Source: Megalobrama amblycephala
Taxonomy: Eukaryota; Chordata; Actinopteri; Cypriniformes; Xenocyprididae
Assembly (NCBI RefSeq): GCF_018812025.1
Contig: NC_063049.1
Location: 14,527,734 to 14,591,733, forward strand
DNA length: 64,000 nucleotides
Reading direction: 5' to 3'
The position numbers and the translations under genes were made by a program. This document shows positions 3,973 to 49,577 of this stretch, in pieces. The first letter of the stretch is position 1. Each line of letters begins with the position of its first letter. The notes beneath the pieces are model-generated. The model made no database searches. It saw nothing but the letters and a program-made list of their open reading frames with translations, and was not told the origin of the DNA.

Positions 3973-4455
3973 AACACAAACACAAACGTGAAAACATTGT
4001 GTATTATAAGGACAAAAGTGATCTATGAGGACAAACGGTTTAACACAAACACAAACGTAAAAATGTTGTGTATTATAAGGACAAAAGTGATCTATGAGGA
4101 CAAACGGTTTAACACAAACACAAACGTAAAAATGTTGTGTATTATAAGGACAAAAGTGATCTATGAGGACAAACGGTTTAACACAAACACAAACGTAAAA
4201 ATGTTGTGTATTATAAGGACAAAAGTGATCTATGAGGACAAACGGTTTAACACAAACACAAACGTAAAAATGTTGTGTATTATAAGGACAAAAGTGATCT
4301 ATGAGGACAAACGGTTTAACACAAACACAAACGTAAAAACGTTGTGTATTATAAGGACAAAAGTGATCTATGAGGACAAACGGTTTAACACAAACACAAA
4401 CGTGAAAACATTTTCTATTATTAGGACAAAAGTGATCGACGAAGACAAACGGTTT
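3973..4455 (+). repeat. 69-bp minisatellite, seven units, open in one frame
   Basis: Seven near-identical 69-bp units. Because 69 is a multiple of three, an open frame runs from 3988 to 4533 and encodes a 23-residue repeat containing C-I-I-R-T-K and E-D-K-R-F-N. Units 2-5 are almost identical, while the last unit has diverged. Each unit carries two copies of an AGGACAAA-type motif, and looser GGACA motifs occur from 2840 to 3200. No promoter, start context or known domain supports a real protein. Confidence 0.9.
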
Positions 4456-5084
4456 AACAAAGTGAAGGCAACATTCTCAGGTCTGCTGAAACTGGTAACA
4501 CCAGACTTATCCAGGTACTGCGAGTCACTGTGACTGGTGCAACTTAATAACATATATTGAAATAATAATGCATCAAAATAATTTAATTTGATTTTAAACG
4601 GGCAAAAATAATTTCAAATCATAGTTTGTGTTTCTGTAGTTACTACTGTGACTGTAACTGTACTAAGCAGAAAAATAGTATGAAATACAGTGGGTACGGA
4701 AAGTATTCAGACCTCCTTAAATTTTTCACTCTTTGTTATATTGCAGCCATTTGCTAAAATCATTTAAGTTCATTTTTCCTCATTAATGTACACCCAGCAC
4801 CCCATATTGACAGGAAAACACAGAATTGTTGACAATTTTGCAGATTTATTAAAAAAGAAAAACTGAAATATCACATGGTCCTAAGTATTCAGAACCTTTG
4901 CTGTGACACTCATATATTTAACTCAGGTGCTGTCCATTTCTTCTGATCATCCTTGAGATGGTTCTACACCTTCATTTGAGTCCAGCTGTGTTTGATTATA
5001 CTGATTGGACTTGATTAGGAAAGCCACACACCTGTCTATATAAGACCTTATAGCTCACAGTGCATGTCAGAGCAAATGAGAATC

Positions 5085-31408: not shown

Positions 31409-32208
31409 ATATTTCCACAACAGCACTGTTGTCTGCGCTCATCACCTACACTATGGCAACACTGTTATTTTAGATATAAGTGGTGAAAACAAAGTGTGAA
31501 GCTGAAGTGTGTGAGAAGAGGGTAAAGCATTGCGTTTGCGTTTTTTACCCAGATTCAAACATACGTGAGGGTTTGGAAAGTCTCTTTTATCTGTGACTCC
31601 AGGCAGATTATTTGGTATGTGAAACACACAGCAGACAGCAGCTCCCTCTGTTAAGCTTTCTCCTCACATCGCTCCACAATGCCAGTTTGAGCAAGACCGA
31701 GTTGGCTTCATATACAAAAATTCTACGGAGGGCAAAAATAAACCCAGAAAACCCCTGTAGTTCAACTAATAATGTGCACACATACACTTAAAACACAAAT
31801 GCATATCTATGCAAACATATTCTCAAAAATATGTGTTTACATCACATTGTGCAGAATGATTTTCTTTCTTGTTGCTGAGTGATAGAGGAAAAGGAAAGTT
31901 CTTATTTCGGAAGAAAAAACAGGTATGTGGTGGTCTACAGCAAGTGAAAATGTGTTACAGCTGGGAACAATTTAAGTAATTATGACTGCTACATTTGATA
32001 CTGAAATTTTGCTTATTGTACTTGGCACGATTGATCAAGCTCTATCAAGTTGGACTTTTTTTGTTAAAATTGACTTTTTTTTTGGTCATACCGCAAATGT
32101 ACAACTGGACAGAAGGCAGGGTTTTTTTCAGGCAACAGAATGACACTGATTTTTCTTTGTTTTTTTCTTTGATTTTTCTTTGGTTAAGGTGTAAACAGTC
32201 AGTGAAAT
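31409..32208. other. no gene recognised
   Basis: AT-rich sequence with short frames only and no paired repeats that I can see. Confidence 0.5.
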
Positions 32209-33006
32209 ACGGAAGAAGATTAGGGCCAAGCAATAATAAAAAAATAAAACCATCTTGAGATTAAAGTTGTTAAATTTCGAGAAAAAACTCGTTAAATTTC
32301 GAGAAAAAAGTCGAAATAAAATGTTGAGAATAAACTCATTAAATTACGAGGAAAAACTCGTTAAATTTCAAGAAAAAAGTCGAGATAAAATGTTGAGAAT
32401 AAACTCGTTAAATTACGAGAAAAATGTCGTTACATTTCGAGAAAAAAGTCGAAATAAAATGTTGAGAATAAACTCATTAAATTGTGAGAAAAAAGTTATT
32501 AAATTACAAGAACAAATTCGTTAAATTAGGAGTTTGTTCTCATAATTTAACGATTTTTTTCTCATAATTTAACAAGTTTATTCTCAATATTTTATCTCGA
32601 CTTTTTTCTCGAAATTTAACGACATTTTTCTCATAATGTAATGAATTTGTTCTCGTAATTTAACGACTTTTTTCTCGTAATTTAATGACTTTATTCTCAA
32701 CATTTTTAACATTTTAACGAGCTTTTTTCTTGTAATTTAAGGAGTTTATTCTCAACATTTTATCTCGACTTTTTTTTTAATTTAACAAGTTTTTTTCGTA
32801 ATTTAAGGAGTTTATTCTCAACATTTTATCTCGACCTTTTTCTCGAAATTTAACGAGTTTTTTCTCGTAATTTAACGAGTTTATTCTCAACATCTTATTT
32901 CGACTTTTTTCTCGAAATTTAACAAGTTTTTTCTCGAAATTTAACAACTTTAATCTCGAGATGGTTTTATTTTTTTATTATTGCTTGGCCCTAATCCTCT
33001 TCCGTA
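32209..33006. repeat. foldback element built of mirrored minisatellites
   Basis: The outer arms TACGGAAGAAGATTAGGGCC and the reverse complement of CTAATCCTCTTCCGTA pair for over 70 bp. Inside, the left half has direct units of about 69 bp containing TTAAATTTCGAGAAAAAA and AAAATGTTGAGAATAAAC, and the right half has the same units inverted. AGTGAAA is repeated at both outer flanks, a likely target duplication. The open frame at 32255-32524 comes from the 69-bp period and is not a gene. Confidence 0.85.
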
Positions 33007-33617
33007 GTGAAAGGCTTGCTCTATGAATGCAATAATATGTTGTTTTTTATTAAACTGGGTACAATGAGATGACATTCTACTCACCCTTCAACTAACGAAC
33101 ATTAAAAGGGCATTTAAAAGTGTAAAAGCATCAACAAGGTAGTTTCAACAGGCCATAAAAAAAGCGCAATTCTTTCCACAGCAATAACGGACGGGTTAAA
33201 CATAACTATAGTGATATATATCTATATGTGATATACGTTGCCTTAATAAAAAATGTTCATGAACTTCAGCATTGCGTGATTCTATTTCAAAGTGATTTCC
33301 ATCATTTTTACAGATAATAAACTGTATTTACCTGTGAAAACAAACCTGGAAAGAGACGTGAGGCTTTGAGGAGAAAAACGAGAGATTCTTTGTGCATTCC
33401 AGTGAATTATTAATGGGATATATCGTAATTATTTTGGGAGAACAGACCACAAATGTGCAGTATATATAGTCCTTTTTCATAATAATCACGAGGATAGAAA
33501 GCAGCGACTGAAAGGAGCTCTTGCCATAGAAATTCTTGTTATAACATGTTACGTTAAAAATACGAAGCGTTACGTTATTCTCATTATGTCTGAAAATAAA
33601 ACAAGAAACAAACATTG
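33007..33617. other. no gene recognised
   Basis: Unique-looking flank of the LTR element. It includes the CATTG target at 33613-33617. Confidence 0.5.
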
Positions 33618-34034
33618 TGTAACGAAGGGAGACTCATGGTAAGATCCATTTGCAGCTTTATTGAAGTAGGAGTGGTCGTACAGGCAGGATCAGACAGGAG
33701 CAAACAGGAATCACAAGGAACAGGCAGAATCGTGGTCAGAATACAGGCAATGGTCAAAGGCAGGCAGATATCAATCACGGAACAGGATAACAAGGCAAGG
33801 GTCAAAGACAGGAACAGACAGGAAAACAGGATAACGCTTGGAATTGACACACAGGGTAATCAAGACTTCGCGGTGAGGTGGTGTGTGTATGAGTCTTTTA
33901 TAGTCCAGGTAATGTGTGGCAGCTGGGTGTGGTGATTAGTGTGGAGTGATTGTGAAGTGAGTGCAGGTGATGAGCAATGGAGGATCATGGGAAATGTAGT
34001 CCGGGATGTGACAGGAACAGACGTTATCGTGACA
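33618..34034 (-). repeat. 3' LTR of the gag-only element
   Basis: 417 bp; holds the short form of the ACAGACAGGA minisatellite, about two units near 33810-33830. Confidence 0.9.
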
Positions 34035-34149
34035 TAACGCCCCCCTCCCGGAAGGCGCGTCCTCGCGGCGTAGATGACACCAATAGGGAGGGGGGGGTGG
34101 GTGCATTGGAGCTCTAGTGGCGGACAGGAACGGAGTCTCCAATGCAGGT

Positions 34150-34340
34150 TCCCGGGCCGCCATGGCGGGTCAGGTGCTACAGGCAGCCATGGCGGGTCAG
34201 GTGCCACGGGCAGCCATGGTGAGTCCGGAGTGCCAGAAGGCCATGGGGGATCAGGTGGCTTGGGTAACCTCGGCAGGTCAGGTGACTTGAGCAACCACGG
34301 CAGGTCAGGCGGGTCAGGTGGCTTGGGCAGCCACAGCAGG
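34150..34340 (-). repeat. 27-bp repeat downstream of the gag stop
   Basis: Degenerate units with core CAGCCATGGCGGGTCAGGTG. They read as a Pro/Trp-rich repeat (D-P-P-W-L-P-V-A-P) in another minus-strand frame, which suggests that the original gag extended further and a frameshift moved its end to 34354. Confidence 0.75.
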
Positions 34341-34353
34341 TAACCACGGTAGG

Positions 34354-35976
34354 TCAGGTGGTTTGGGTAATGGGGATTTGGGTAATGGTCTTGGGGATTT
34401 CAACGGGGTCTGTTGCGGCCTCGTGGGCAAGGAGTTCAGGTGGTTCCGGCAGGGCCAGGCGTTCGGGTGGTGCCGGCAGGGCGAGACGCCTGGGTGGCGC
34501 TGGCAGAGCAAGGAGTTTGGGCGGCGTTGGCAGGGCTAGGAGCTTGGATGGCGCCGGCAGGGCCAGGAGCTCGGGTGGTGCTGGCAAGGCAGGGAGTTCA
34601 GGTGGCGCCGGCAGAGCGAGAAGCGCAGGTGGCGCCGGCAGAGCGAGAAGCGCAGGTGGCGCCGGCAGGGCGAGAAGCGCAGGTGGCGCTGGCAGGGCAA
34701 GAAGCGCAGGTGGCGCTGGCCGAGCAAGCAGCTTGGGCGTAAGAGGGGGAAGAACGGAAGAAGCCTTCCTCCTCCTCCTCCTCCTCCTCTTCCGAGGATG
34801 AGGCGATGCGGCCATCTTGTCCGTAGACACAGGCAATGTGGCCCTCTTGTCCGTAGACACAGGCGATGTGGCCCTCTTGTCCGTAGACACAGGCGAACTT
34901 GAGAGCGTTGCAACCGGTTGGCTTGAGTGCGAAGCGACCGCCGGGCTTGAGTGCGAAGCGGCCGGCGGGCTTGAGAGCGAAGCGGCCGGCGGGCTTGAGA
35001 GCGAAGCGGCCGGCGGGCTTGAGAGCGAAGCGGCCGACTGGTTTGAGAGCGAAGTGGCCGGCGAGGACTTGGGGATGCCAGCTGCTCGGACCGTAGTCAG
35101 TGGAGGATCAGCCACACTGGAACGCAACCCTCTCCGCTCCCGGACTGATCTAGAGACGTGACGTGACTCTGGGTGATCAGCGGCGACGTGACTTTGCTCT
35201 GGGCGATCAGCGGCGACGTAACGTTGCTCTGGGCGATCAGCGAAGGCGTGACGTTGCTCTGGGCGATCAGCGAAGGCGTGACGTTGCTCTGGGCGTTCAG
35301 CGAAGGCGTGACGTTGCTCTGGGCGATCAGCGAAGGCGTGATGTTGCTCTGGGCGATCAGCGAAGGCGTGACGTTGCTCTGGGCGATCAGCGAAGACGTG
35401 ACGTTGCTCTGGGCGATCAGCGAAGGCGTGACGTTGCTCTGGGCGATCAGCGAAGGCGTGACGTTGCTCTGGGCGATCAGCGAAGTCGTGACGTTGCTCT
35501 GGGCGATCAGCAGAGGCGTGACGTTGCTCTGGGTGATCAGCGGAGACGTGACGTTGCTCTGGGCGATCAGCGGAGGCGTGACGTGGCTCTGGAAGATCAA
35601 CGGAGAGGTGACTTGGCTCTGGAAGATCAGCGAAGACTTGACTTGGTGTTGTTGTGGTAGCAGCCATCTTGTGGGTGTTGTCTGGCGTGGCAGCCACTAC
35701 ATGAAGAGACGAGGTGTCGCGTTCCTCCGCGACACCCACAGTAAAGCTAGAGCCACTCAGTTGTAATGCCAGATCTATATATTGTTCTAGAGTCCCATCA
35801 GGATCATGCAGTGGCATGAGGGAACTGAGCGGATCAGAAAGTCCCCCACGAAAGAATATCATGAGACATACTGTGTCAAAGGTTGTTAAATGTGCCAGTC
35901 CAATAAAATCCTCGACATAATCCTCAATCGTTCTGTCTCCTTGACGGAGACACATTAACTGGACAGAATGACTCAT
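34354..35976 (-). CDS. gag-like protein of the LTR element, rich in internal repeats
   Basis: The start chosen is the ATG at 35976-35974, the first Met after the 5' LTR, giving 540 residues. The open frame extends upstream into the LTR but only as an artefact of the minisatellite. The first 100 or so residues have a retrotransposon-gag character (C-L-R-Q-G-D-R-T-I-E-D-Y-V, L-M-I-F-F-R-G-G-L, Y-I-D-L-A-L-Q-L-S-G). No zinc knuckle or protease motif follows. The rest is repeats: about 16 copies of a ten-residue R-P-E-Q-R-H-A-F-A-D unit, an eight-residue Ser/Pro/Ala unit, a ten-residue S-T-D-K-R-A unit, a basic block (K-R-R-R-R-R-R-R-K) and a nine-residue L-P-A-P-P-A unit. It probably forms or joins particles and binds RNA through the basic block; this is inference. 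Confidence 0.75.
   Translation of the reverse strand: MSHSVQLMCLRQGDRTIEDYVEDFIGLAHLTTFDTVCLMIFFRGGLSDPLSSLMPLHDPDGTLEQYIDLALQLSGSSFTVGVAEERDTSSLHVVAATPDNTHKMAATTTTPSQVFADLPEPSHLSVDLPEPRHASADRPEQRHVSADHPEQRHASADRPEQRHDFADRPEQRHAFADRPEQRHAFADRPEQRHVFADRPEQRHAFADRPEQHHAFADRPEQRHAFAERPEQRHAFADRPEQRHAFADRPEQRYVAADRPEQSHVAADHPESRHVSRSVRERRGLRSSVADPPLTTVRAAGIPKSSPATSLSNQSAASLSSPPAASLSSPPAASLSSPPAASHSSPAVASHSSQPVATLSSSPVSTDKRATSPVSTDKRATLPVSTDKMAASPHPRKRRRRRRRKASSVLPPLTPKLLARPAPPALLALPAPPALLALPAPPALLALPAPPALLALPAPPELPALPAPPELLALPAPSKLLALPTPPKLLALPAPPRRLALPAPPERLALPEPPELLAHEAATDPVEIPKTITQIPITQTT
34430..34736 (-). repeat. 27-bp coding repeat, about 11 units
   Basis: Units such as GGTGGCGCCGGCAGAGCGAG repeat every 27 bp. 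In the gag frame they give L-P-A-P-P-A-L-L-A. All units preserve the frame. Confidence 0.9.
34816..34900 (-). repeat. 30-bp coding repeat, three units
   Basis: Units with GTCCGTAGACACAGGC repeat at 30 bp and encode the S-T-D-K-R-A-T decapeptide of gag, next to the poly-basic block. Confidence 0.9.
34905..35070 (-). repeat. 24-bp coding repeat, about seven units
   Basis: Units with TTGAGAGCGAAGCGGCCGGC repeat at 24 bp and encode an eight-residue S-S-P-P-A-A-S-L motif in gag. Confidence 0.9.
35155..35645 (-). repeat. 30-bp coding repeat, about 16 units
   Basis: Units with GACGTTGCTCTGGGCGATCA repeat at exactly 30 bp. They encode R-P-E-Q-R-H-A-F-A-D on the minus strand. The central units are nearly identical while the outer ones diverge, as in arrays that expand from the middle. 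Open frames on the plus strand across this block are shadows. Confidence 0.92.
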
Positions 35977-36034
35977 ATTAGCTGAGACAGGAACACTCAC
36001 GAAAGCTGCTGGATCTCGGTGTGGCGAAGTCTTC

Positions 36035-36703
36035 TGTAACGAAGGGAGACTCATGGTAAGATCCATTTGCAGCTTTATTGAAGTAGGAGTGGTCGTACAG
36101 GCAGGATCAGACAGGAGCAAACAGGAATCACAAGGAACAGGCAGAATCGTGGTCAGAATACAGGCAATGGTCAAAGGCAGGCAGATATCAATCACGGAAC
36201 AGGATAACAAGGCAAGGGTCAAAGACAGGAACAGACAGGAACAGACAGGAACAGACAGGAACAGACAGGAACAGACAGGAACAGACAGGAACAGACAGGA
36301 ACAGACAGGAACAGACAGGAACAGACAGGAACAGACAGGAACAGACAGGAACAGACAGGAACAGACAGGAACAGACAGGAACAGACAGGAACAGACAGGA
36401 ACAGACAGGAACAGACAGGAACAGACAGGAACAGACAGGAACAGACAGGAACAGACAGGAACAGACAGGAACAGACAGGAACAGACAGGAACAGACAGGA
36501 TAACGCTTGGAATTGACACACAGGGTAATCAAGACTTCGCGGTGAGGTGGTGTGTGTATGAGTCTTTTATAGTCCAGGTAATGTGTGGCAGCTGGGTGTG
36601 GTGATTAGTGTGGAGTGATTGTGAAGTGAGTGCAGGTGATGAGCAATGGAGGATCATGGGAAATGTAGTCCGGGATGTGACAGGAACAGACGTGATCGTG
36701 ACA
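36035..36703 (-). repeat. 5' LTR of the gag-only element, expanded
   Basis: 669 bp; same ends as the 3' LTR. The extra length is the ACAGACAGGA array at 36224-36499. Confidence 0.9.
36224..36499. repeat. 10-bp minisatellite (ACAGACAGGA)n, about 27 units
   Basis: Perfect decamers in the 5' LTR, against about two in the 3' LTR. The array has no stop codon in several frames and creates long spurious proteins on both strands. The expansion must postdate insertion, because the two LTRs are copies made at integration. Confidence 0.95.
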
Positions 36704-36708
36704 CATTG

Positions 36709-49234: not shown

Positions 49235-49577
49235 ACTAAATTAAAAAAATAAAAACGGTAATTGCAACTTTTTATCTCAGAATTCTGACTTTTTTTCTCA
49301 CAATCGCGAGTTATAAAGTCAGAACTGCGAGATATAAACTCGCAATTGCGTGATATAGTCACAATTCTGACTTTTTTTTTCCTCGCAATTCTGACTTTTT
49401 CTCACAATTGCGAGATATAAAGTCACAATTCTGACTTTTTCTCGCAATTCTGACTTTTTTCTTGCAATTGCAAGTTTATATCTCAGAATTGTGACTTTAT
49501 ATCACTCAAATGTGAGTTTATATCTCGCAATTTTGACTTTATATCACGCAATTATAAGTTTATATCTCCGAATTGGG
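49235..49577. repeat. mirrored short repeats (TCTCGCAATTCTGACTTTTT)
   Basis: Units with TATCTCGCAATT and TGACTTTTT alternate in direct and inverted order, and GAAACCCGTTTCCGCCACT lies at the left edge. The right counterpart of that edge is absent. It is the same kind of structure as 32209-33006, but truncated. Confidence 0.7.

Follow-up and report, generated by a model that had tools for sequence, protein, structure and literature searches.

Retrotransposons that carry long terminal repeats (LTRs) and a gag gene, with no pol gene, have already been described in plants and in zebrafish. The plant TR-GAG elements consist of LTRs and a single gag open reading frame (ORF) without pol, and for an Arabidopsis member, whose 562-aa GAG is full-length, transposition was shown (PMC8704663). 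The zebrafish BHIKHARI elements, Bik-1 and Bik-2, are presented as recently active vertebrate gag-only families; in the portion of the report available, no reference-genome copy of Bik-1 encodes parts of pol, and the donor of the enzymes is left open (PMC10996621). In the Tf1/sushi group of the Metaviridae (Tf1, sushi-ichi), the 5′ end of the element's own RNA primes reverse transcription (PMC6317226, PMC10085805). The element compared here with these systems lies on the minus strand, at positions 33618–36703, of a 64,000-nt stretch of Megalobrama amblycephala contig NC_063049.1 (this whole analyzed stretch is called the window, and all coordinates are window positions). We judge it probable that the element is a recently inserted copy of a large, non-autonomous LTR family derived from Ty3/gypsy chromoviruses of the Tf1/sushi group, that it is mobilized in trans by a pol-bearing chromovirus, and that its protein favors its own RNA.

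The window copy is an intact LTR element of 3,086 bp, recognizable as such by a near-identical LTR pair, a target site duplication (CATTG; left copy 33613–33617, right copy 36704–36708), and a polypurine tract (GGGAGGGGGG, 34040–34049) adjoining the 3′ LTR on its upstream side. These and all further parts of the element lie on the minus strand, apart from the strandless target duplications. In gag orientation, the 3′ LTR is 417 bp long (33618–34034, TGTCACG...CGTTACA) and the 5′ LTR 669 bp (36035–36703). Of 417 aligned bases, 2 differ between the pair, and a non-coding 10-bp array of 27.8 perfect copies is present in the right, 5′ LTR only (36223–36500). An AATAAA polyadenylation signal inside the LTR (36074–36079) also occurs in the compared LTR ends of other copies. 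The single ORF encodes 570 aa (34354–36066) and starts within the 5′ LTR; protease, reverse transcriptase, and integrase are absent from the window copy, as judged from the ORF listing. A preliminary description of this DNA had proposed an intact unit with two LTRs, a 5-bp duplication, and a purine tract, all of which were found in place, and had named gag as the only gene; one ORF and no pol are indeed present, but that ORF encodes the C-terminal half of a capsid followed by repeats, and not a whole gag. The same description raised the possibility of an uncharacterized class. Since gag-only elements are already known, both in plants (TR-GAG) and in zebrafish (BHIKHARI), the window element counts as a variant and not as a new class.

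The Arabidopsis TR-GAG element has a full-length GAG, whereas the fish element has only the capsid C-terminal domain plus arrays. BHIKHARI elements are set apart as a different lineage, related to lokiretroviruses, with a coiled-coil as well as a capsid domain in their Gag; the available part of their description leaves arrays unmentioned. LARDs and TRIMs are LTR elements without coding capacity, whereas the window copy has a 570-aa ORF whose capsid-bearing region (the head) is under moderate selection. The titles and abstract openings of a mainly open-access literature, with Repbase outside the search, contained no account of an LTR element in fish that lacks pol and has tandem arrays inside its coding region, and a word search of a zebrafish endogenous retrovirus survey (PMC8672886) returned neither "gag-only" nor "tandem". 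As expected for a fish element, the LTR query had no match in a phage collection.

Further copies are numerous. For the head, 3,523 candidate places were counted in the genome and 150 of them scored, and the exact junction between LTR end and primer site (TTACAGAAGACTTCGCC) occurs 431 times, against none for a reversed control pattern. Two sets of copies were compared: a protein-found set, biased toward conserved protein, and a DNA-found set, reached through 20 junctions sampled from the first 100 of the 431, the only ones listed and all on contigs C1–C4 (every 10th, then half-way places), with reverse transcriptase sought within 4.5 kb. A gag head without clear reverse transcriptase accompanies 14 of the 20 sampled junctions, pointing to a large gag-only lineage, and the other 6 are accompanied by reverse transcriptase. 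LTR pairs were recognized in 12 of the 14 gag-only copies; they are 97–100% identical in 11 (100% in 6) and 94% identical in L051. Five-base-pair target duplications flank 10 of these 12 copies (not L046 and L051), and also the pol-bearing copy L058. Among the sampled gag-only copies, L056 and L059 are disrupted, and in L057 the head is displaced by approximately 1.5 kb. Elsewhere, L021 holds two adjacent family copies in tandem, a single stretch of 3.4 kb having arrays on either side of the junction, and L040 has a long run of N after the second array; runs of this sort inflate the open-frame values of the scored places, which were therefore disregarded.

The six copies with reverse transcriptase (L042, L050, L053, L054, L055, and L058) supply candidates for a partner. 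L050 contains RVT_1, RNase H, H2C2, rve, SH3_Tf2-1, and Chromo domains, which places it among the Tf1/sushi-type chromoviruses; in this copy, the gag region is divided between two frames. As the pol with chromodomain integrase is present in L050 and not in the window copy, the window element is filed as a non-autonomous derivative and not as a full Tf1/sushi member. The junction was itself the search term, so sharing it is no independent evidence of kinship. Beyond the junction, however, three of the six (L050, L053, and L058) share the self-primer described below, a longer LTR end, and a similar purine tract with the gag-only copies, and their LTRs have GCGAAGTCTTG and ATGGATCT in common with gag-only LTRs; primer matches in L042, L054, and L055 reach only 5–7 nt. 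The LTR pairs of the three partners are 100% identical over the 201 bases seen (L050), 98.6% over 219 (L053), and 99.0% (L058), whereas L054 and L055 showed only 90–92% matches and L042 none. Capsid matches in L042, L050, L053, and L055 are 30–37% identical to gag-only heads, and gag-type arrays were absent from all six copies within the fetched stretch. The pol-bearing copies are likely the helper, a Tf1/sushi chromovirus.

The same affinity is indicated by the signals for reverse transcription. Like Tf1/sushi elements, the window copy has a candidate self-primer where its RNA is predicted to begin and a complementary primer binding site (PBS) next to the LTR. The PBS (GAAGACTTCGCC, 36023–36034), assigned from the sequence, the complementarity, and the junction count, adjoins the 5′ LTR and shares 10 nt of complementarity with GCGAAGTCTT (36531–36540), which lies 31 nt after a TATA match (TATAAAAG, 36564–36571); the RNA start is a prediction. 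Complementarity of at least 10 nt was found in 19 of 28 copies (L018, L019, and L022, with no recognizable site, were left out), a length matched by 0–3 of 200 shuffles each, and at 15 of the 20 sampled junctions. In 14 of those 19 copies the LTR side lies 29–31 nt after a TATA match. Furthermore, matched changes on the primer and PBS sides occur in L014 and L030 (one variant) and in L034 (another), which can hardly be due to chance. The family thus appears to be self-priming.

The ORF encodes a capsid C-terminal domain with arrays and a basic stretch behind it. In the window copy, the domain spans residues 33–105 (35752–35970), as located by alignment, profile match, structure model, and Foldseek. 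The head matches the Retrotrans_gag profile PF03732 at positions 50–96 of 97 only, at a score under the curated cut-off; among the 24 aligned heads, 22 show a match to this family with E values no higher than 1, the best being 0.00038. Against solved structures, a profile of the 24 sequences had one credible match, the PEG10 capsid C-terminal domain (E 1.5e-4; next match 0.57). The structure model of the head has five helices (mean pLDDT 57, pTM 0.49), and its top four Foldseek matches are chains of the PEG10 C-terminal domain (probability 1.00, target TM-score 0.68–0.72, E 0.09–0.21, none at or below 0.001). PEG10, the nearest solved relative, is described as homologous to sushi-ichi. The ORF beyond the head has no Pfam match; the ORF as a whole contains two cysteines and no zinc-knuckle pattern, and only 32 residues lie upstream of the capsid domain, leaving no room for a capsid N-terminal domain; the protein is therefore a capsid C-terminal domain with arrays, and not the whole Gag of a TR-GAG element, as it covers only the second half of PF03732. 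The partner L050, with SH3_Tf2-1 and chromodomain, and the PEG10-like capsid domain link the element to the Tf1/sushi group; the window copy differs in its missing protease, reverse transcriptase, integrase, capsid N-terminal domain, and zinc knuckle and in its large arrays, which were not seen in the six pol-bearing copies. Met31, just upstream of the domain (35974–35976), shows conservation of 90% or more in alignment A1, and stops lie between the LTR-encoded part and the head in the sampled copies L043, L051, and L052; translation may therefore actually start at this Met. The basic stretch RKRRRRRRRK (34765–34794), where it was recognized, keeps to the head frame in 9 of 10 protein-found copies and in 2 of 2 sampled ones, and may substitute for the missing nucleocapsid. 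The arrays are probably disordered.

Constraint on the head, outside the arrays, is clear but moderate. The ratio of non-synonymous to synonymous differences per site (pN/pS) among protein-found heads (465 pairs) is 0.39–0.44 in pS bins from 0.1 to 0.75, and 0.50 at pS 0.02–0.1. Among DNA-found heads (L056, L057, and L059 left out), it is 0.50 when all 55 pairs are taken and 0.45 in the 28 whose pS lies under 0.6.

Four arrays follow the head, in gag order: array 1 (35157–35642; 30-bp unit, 16.2 copies, ADRPEQRHAF type), array 2 (34898–35063; 24 bp, 6.9 copies, SSPPAASL type), array 3 (34801–34896; 30 bp, 3.2 copies, STDKMAASPV type), and, beyond the basic stretch, array 4 (34425–34737; 27 bp, 11.6 copies, LLALPAPPE type). 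The array past the stop codon noticed in the preliminary description is also present, with units of 27 and 36 bp (34155–34341), and is a normal part of the family: a single 888-aa ORF in L039 reads through it. That all coding units are multiples of three held well beyond the window. Among the 88 internal arrays of the gag-only copies sampled (14), 87 have a period divisible by three (the exception, 95 bp, lies in the disrupted L056), as do 127 of 129 arrays to the right of the LTR end in the protein-found set (periods of at least 6; L018, L019, and L022 left out); this regularity exceeds chance. Arrays in LTRs behave differently. Those in the sample (five rows from three copies, probably two distinct arrays) have periods of 10 and 19. 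Of the protein-found rows in LTRs or 5′ flanks, 9 of 21 are divisible by three, four of the nine lying in the neighboring copy in L021; arrays in a copy's own LTR have periods of 24, 16, 16, 20, 27, 29, and 10, with 2 of 7 divisible.

The further claim that every array has been kept in frame did not hold, as frames are broken in a sizeable minority of copies. The head frame is maintained in 12 of 14 (array 1), 9 of 13 (array 2), 7 of 10 (array 4), and 6 of 13 (last array) sampled copies, with ties in L047 and L048 counted in, one in array 1 and one in array 2; in protein-found copies, it is maintained in 25 of 27 for array 1 (one tie counted in) and 15 of 21 for array 4. Substitutions between units were tallied in 41 hand-chosen arrays, with arrays 1–4 mostly from in-frame copies. 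In array 4 (nine arrays chosen as in frame), 172 are synonymous and 66 non-synonymous in the head frame, against 36/174 and 27/183 in the other two.

Array lengths differ between near-identical copies, as expected if the protein varies by repeat number, which had also been proposed. L049 and L060 agree at all but 10 of 3,099 aligned bases, but blocks of 60, 53, 249, 108, and 324 bp, together with six gaps of 1–5 bp, separate them, and their ORFs encode 945 and 340 aa, respectively. L041 and L039 have identical heads and differ at 44 of 2,804 bases, by blocks of 30, 24, 300, 27, and 27 bp, and by smaller gaps. The explanation that fits best is slippage and template switching during reverse transcription.

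Taken together, a division of labor may be proposed. The element would supply in cis the promoter, self-primer, PBS, purine tract, and LTR ends, and a pol-bearing chromovirus of the same genome, with the same signals, would provide the enzymes that copy and integrate it in trans. The capsid C-terminal domain with its in-frame arrays and basic stretch would join or modify the capsid shell of the helper and favor the element's own RNA, which would account for both the selection on the head and the maintenance of the reading frame, while array lengths would shift by slippage or template switching, fast relative to base changes. For the protein, joining helper particles in favor of its own RNA is the likeliest role, with damping of the helper or no role at all as its rivals. 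More tentatively, and with rather little confidence, one may picture the retained half-domain docking onto helper Gag and the hypervariable in-frame minisatellites serving as adjustable, disordered arms that steer the element's own RNA or damp the helper; if so, each new insertion could bring a protein of different length. Because an element without pol and the likely donor of its enzymes occur together in one vertebrate genome, both with young copies, parasitism among LTR elements becomes open to test. The family also offers a natural case of a reduced capsid domain retained under selection, and a contrast within one element between coding arrays, whose periods are almost always divisible by three, and LTR arrays free of that limit.

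Several observations weigh against this proposal. The LTRs of L050, L053, and L058 are only 53–61% identical overall to gag-only LTRs, which are 73–100% identical among themselves, so a different chromovirus family could be the true helper. Complementarity falls short of 10 nt in 9 of the 28 copies and at 5 of the 20 junctions, including three of the six pol-bearing ones, and minimum-energy leader folds pair primer with PBS in 7 of 22 copies, the window copy not among them. L059 shows a weak (31%) reverse-transcriptase match approximately 4 kb downstream. The structure model of the head is weak, and four close DNA-found pairs have pN/pS of 0.73–2.17. ORFs are as short as 72, 182, and 192 aa in 3 of the 14 sampled gag-only copies and 284–340 aa in three more; since the latter include L060, with identical LTRs, a long ORF is not required for every jump. 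As arrays are inherited, the 88 periods are not independent, and independent arrays are estimated to number nearer nine or ten. Array 1 gives no sign of purifying selection, its changes being mostly non-synonymous in the head frame (16 synonymous, 153 non-synonymous), and in arrays 2, 3, and 5 synonymous changes are not in excess in that frame and form no clear pattern.

Among the alternatives, one concerns the source of the mosaics of arrays and heads, which could have arisen when genomic copies underwent gene conversion or crossed over unequally, instead of through reverse transcription. Many near-identical copies exist, and L041 and L052 combine nearly identical heads (pS 0.019) with LTRs that are 82% identical, as this explanation would have it. 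The LTR pairs within L041 and L052 are nevertheless 100% and 99.8% identical, respectively, as expected with a mosaic formed before or during reverse transcription. Recombination between genomic copies is a rather improbable source, less so favored than slippage and template switching.

A second alternative treats the ORF as a passenger: the cis signals alone would move the element, and the GC-rich arrays would have remained open since their ancestral units were free of stops and expanded by whole units. The tallied stretches of arrays 2 and 3 are indeed stop-free in all three frames, frame switches between arrays bring no early stop in L012 and L014, several sampled copies combine broken ORFs with near-identical LTRs, and array 1 lacks a purifying pattern. 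Against this account stand the rarity of periods not divisible by three inside the element, as opposed to their frequency in LTR arrays, the reduced pN/pS of the head in DNA-found copies, and the synonymous excess of array 4 solely in the head frame. Related proteins with tandem runs in other cypriniform species likewise speak against a passenger, which we consider unlikely.

The family might also coexist with its helper by damping it. A capsid C-terminal domain with no room for the N-terminal domain, and with a possible start just before it, recalls Ty1 p22/p18, which consist of Gag's C-terminal portion, lack the N-terminal one (PMC8458377), and have been proposed to block assembly, according to the abstracts of two reports (PMC8458377, PMC4599808). 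According to those abstracts, in which no arrays are mentioned, p22/p18 are products of a sub-genomic RNA of full Ty1 and not of a separate element. The helper's capsid domain is, moreover, only distantly similar to that of the gag-only family. Ty1 is a copia-type element, so its likeness to the present protein would be convergence. Damping is thus an improbable main role, and participation of the protein in helper particles is preferred.

The idea that a gag-pol element gave rise to the window copy simply by a recent internal deletion can be dismissed as extremely improbable: pol-bearing copies with the same LTR-end/primer-site junction do exist, but they have no gag-type arrays in the fetched stretch and only a distantly related capsid part, for which reasons the deletion was rejected, and both the low identity of the three partner LTRs and the prevalence of gag-type copies at sampled junctions (14 of 20) also argue against it.

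Relatives of the protein occur in other cypriniform fishes. One group of 14 proteins comes from Sinocyclocheilus, Cirrhinus, Ctenopharyngodon, and Xyrauchen, and another of 70, many unnamed, from Anabarilius (the closest), Labeo, Cirrhinus, Ctenopharyngodon, and Onychostoma; Xyrauchen is a catostomid and Ctenopharyngodon a xenocypridid. Tandem runs occur in 78 of these 84 proteins. The family accounts for misleadingly named public fish proteins (foot protein, filamentous hemagglutinin, aggrecan, and others). Seven Labeo rohita proteins with a gag-type head (P0026, P0049, P0053, P0057, P0070, P0074, and P0083) bear such names, namely Foot protein 1, Filamentous hemagglutinin, CD209 antigen, Aggrecan core protein, Adhesive plaque matrix protein, Alternative oxidase, and C-type lectin. 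P0012, P0036, and P0069 are predicted host proteins that match the gag-type head, including CCR4-NOT 6-like and Serine protease 27, and the third presumably has several Ig-type domains, to go by Pfam names; they are gene-model fusions or exonized insertions. P0082, a protein from a Plesiomonas metagenome bin on a 1,553-base contig, also matches the fish gag-type head and is probably contamination with fish DNA.

The window contains other repeats. At 32208–33006, approximately 600 bp from the element, lies a large inverted tandem structure with 217-nt arms that are 95% complementary and with AT-rich units of 22 and 69 bp, which looks like a separate palindromic repeat. A satellite-like array at 3973–4459 consists of 7.1 copies of a 69-bp unit with 97% matches, and AT-rich arrays with periods of 19–21 and 60 bp, made of CTCACAATT-like units, occupy 49297–49575.

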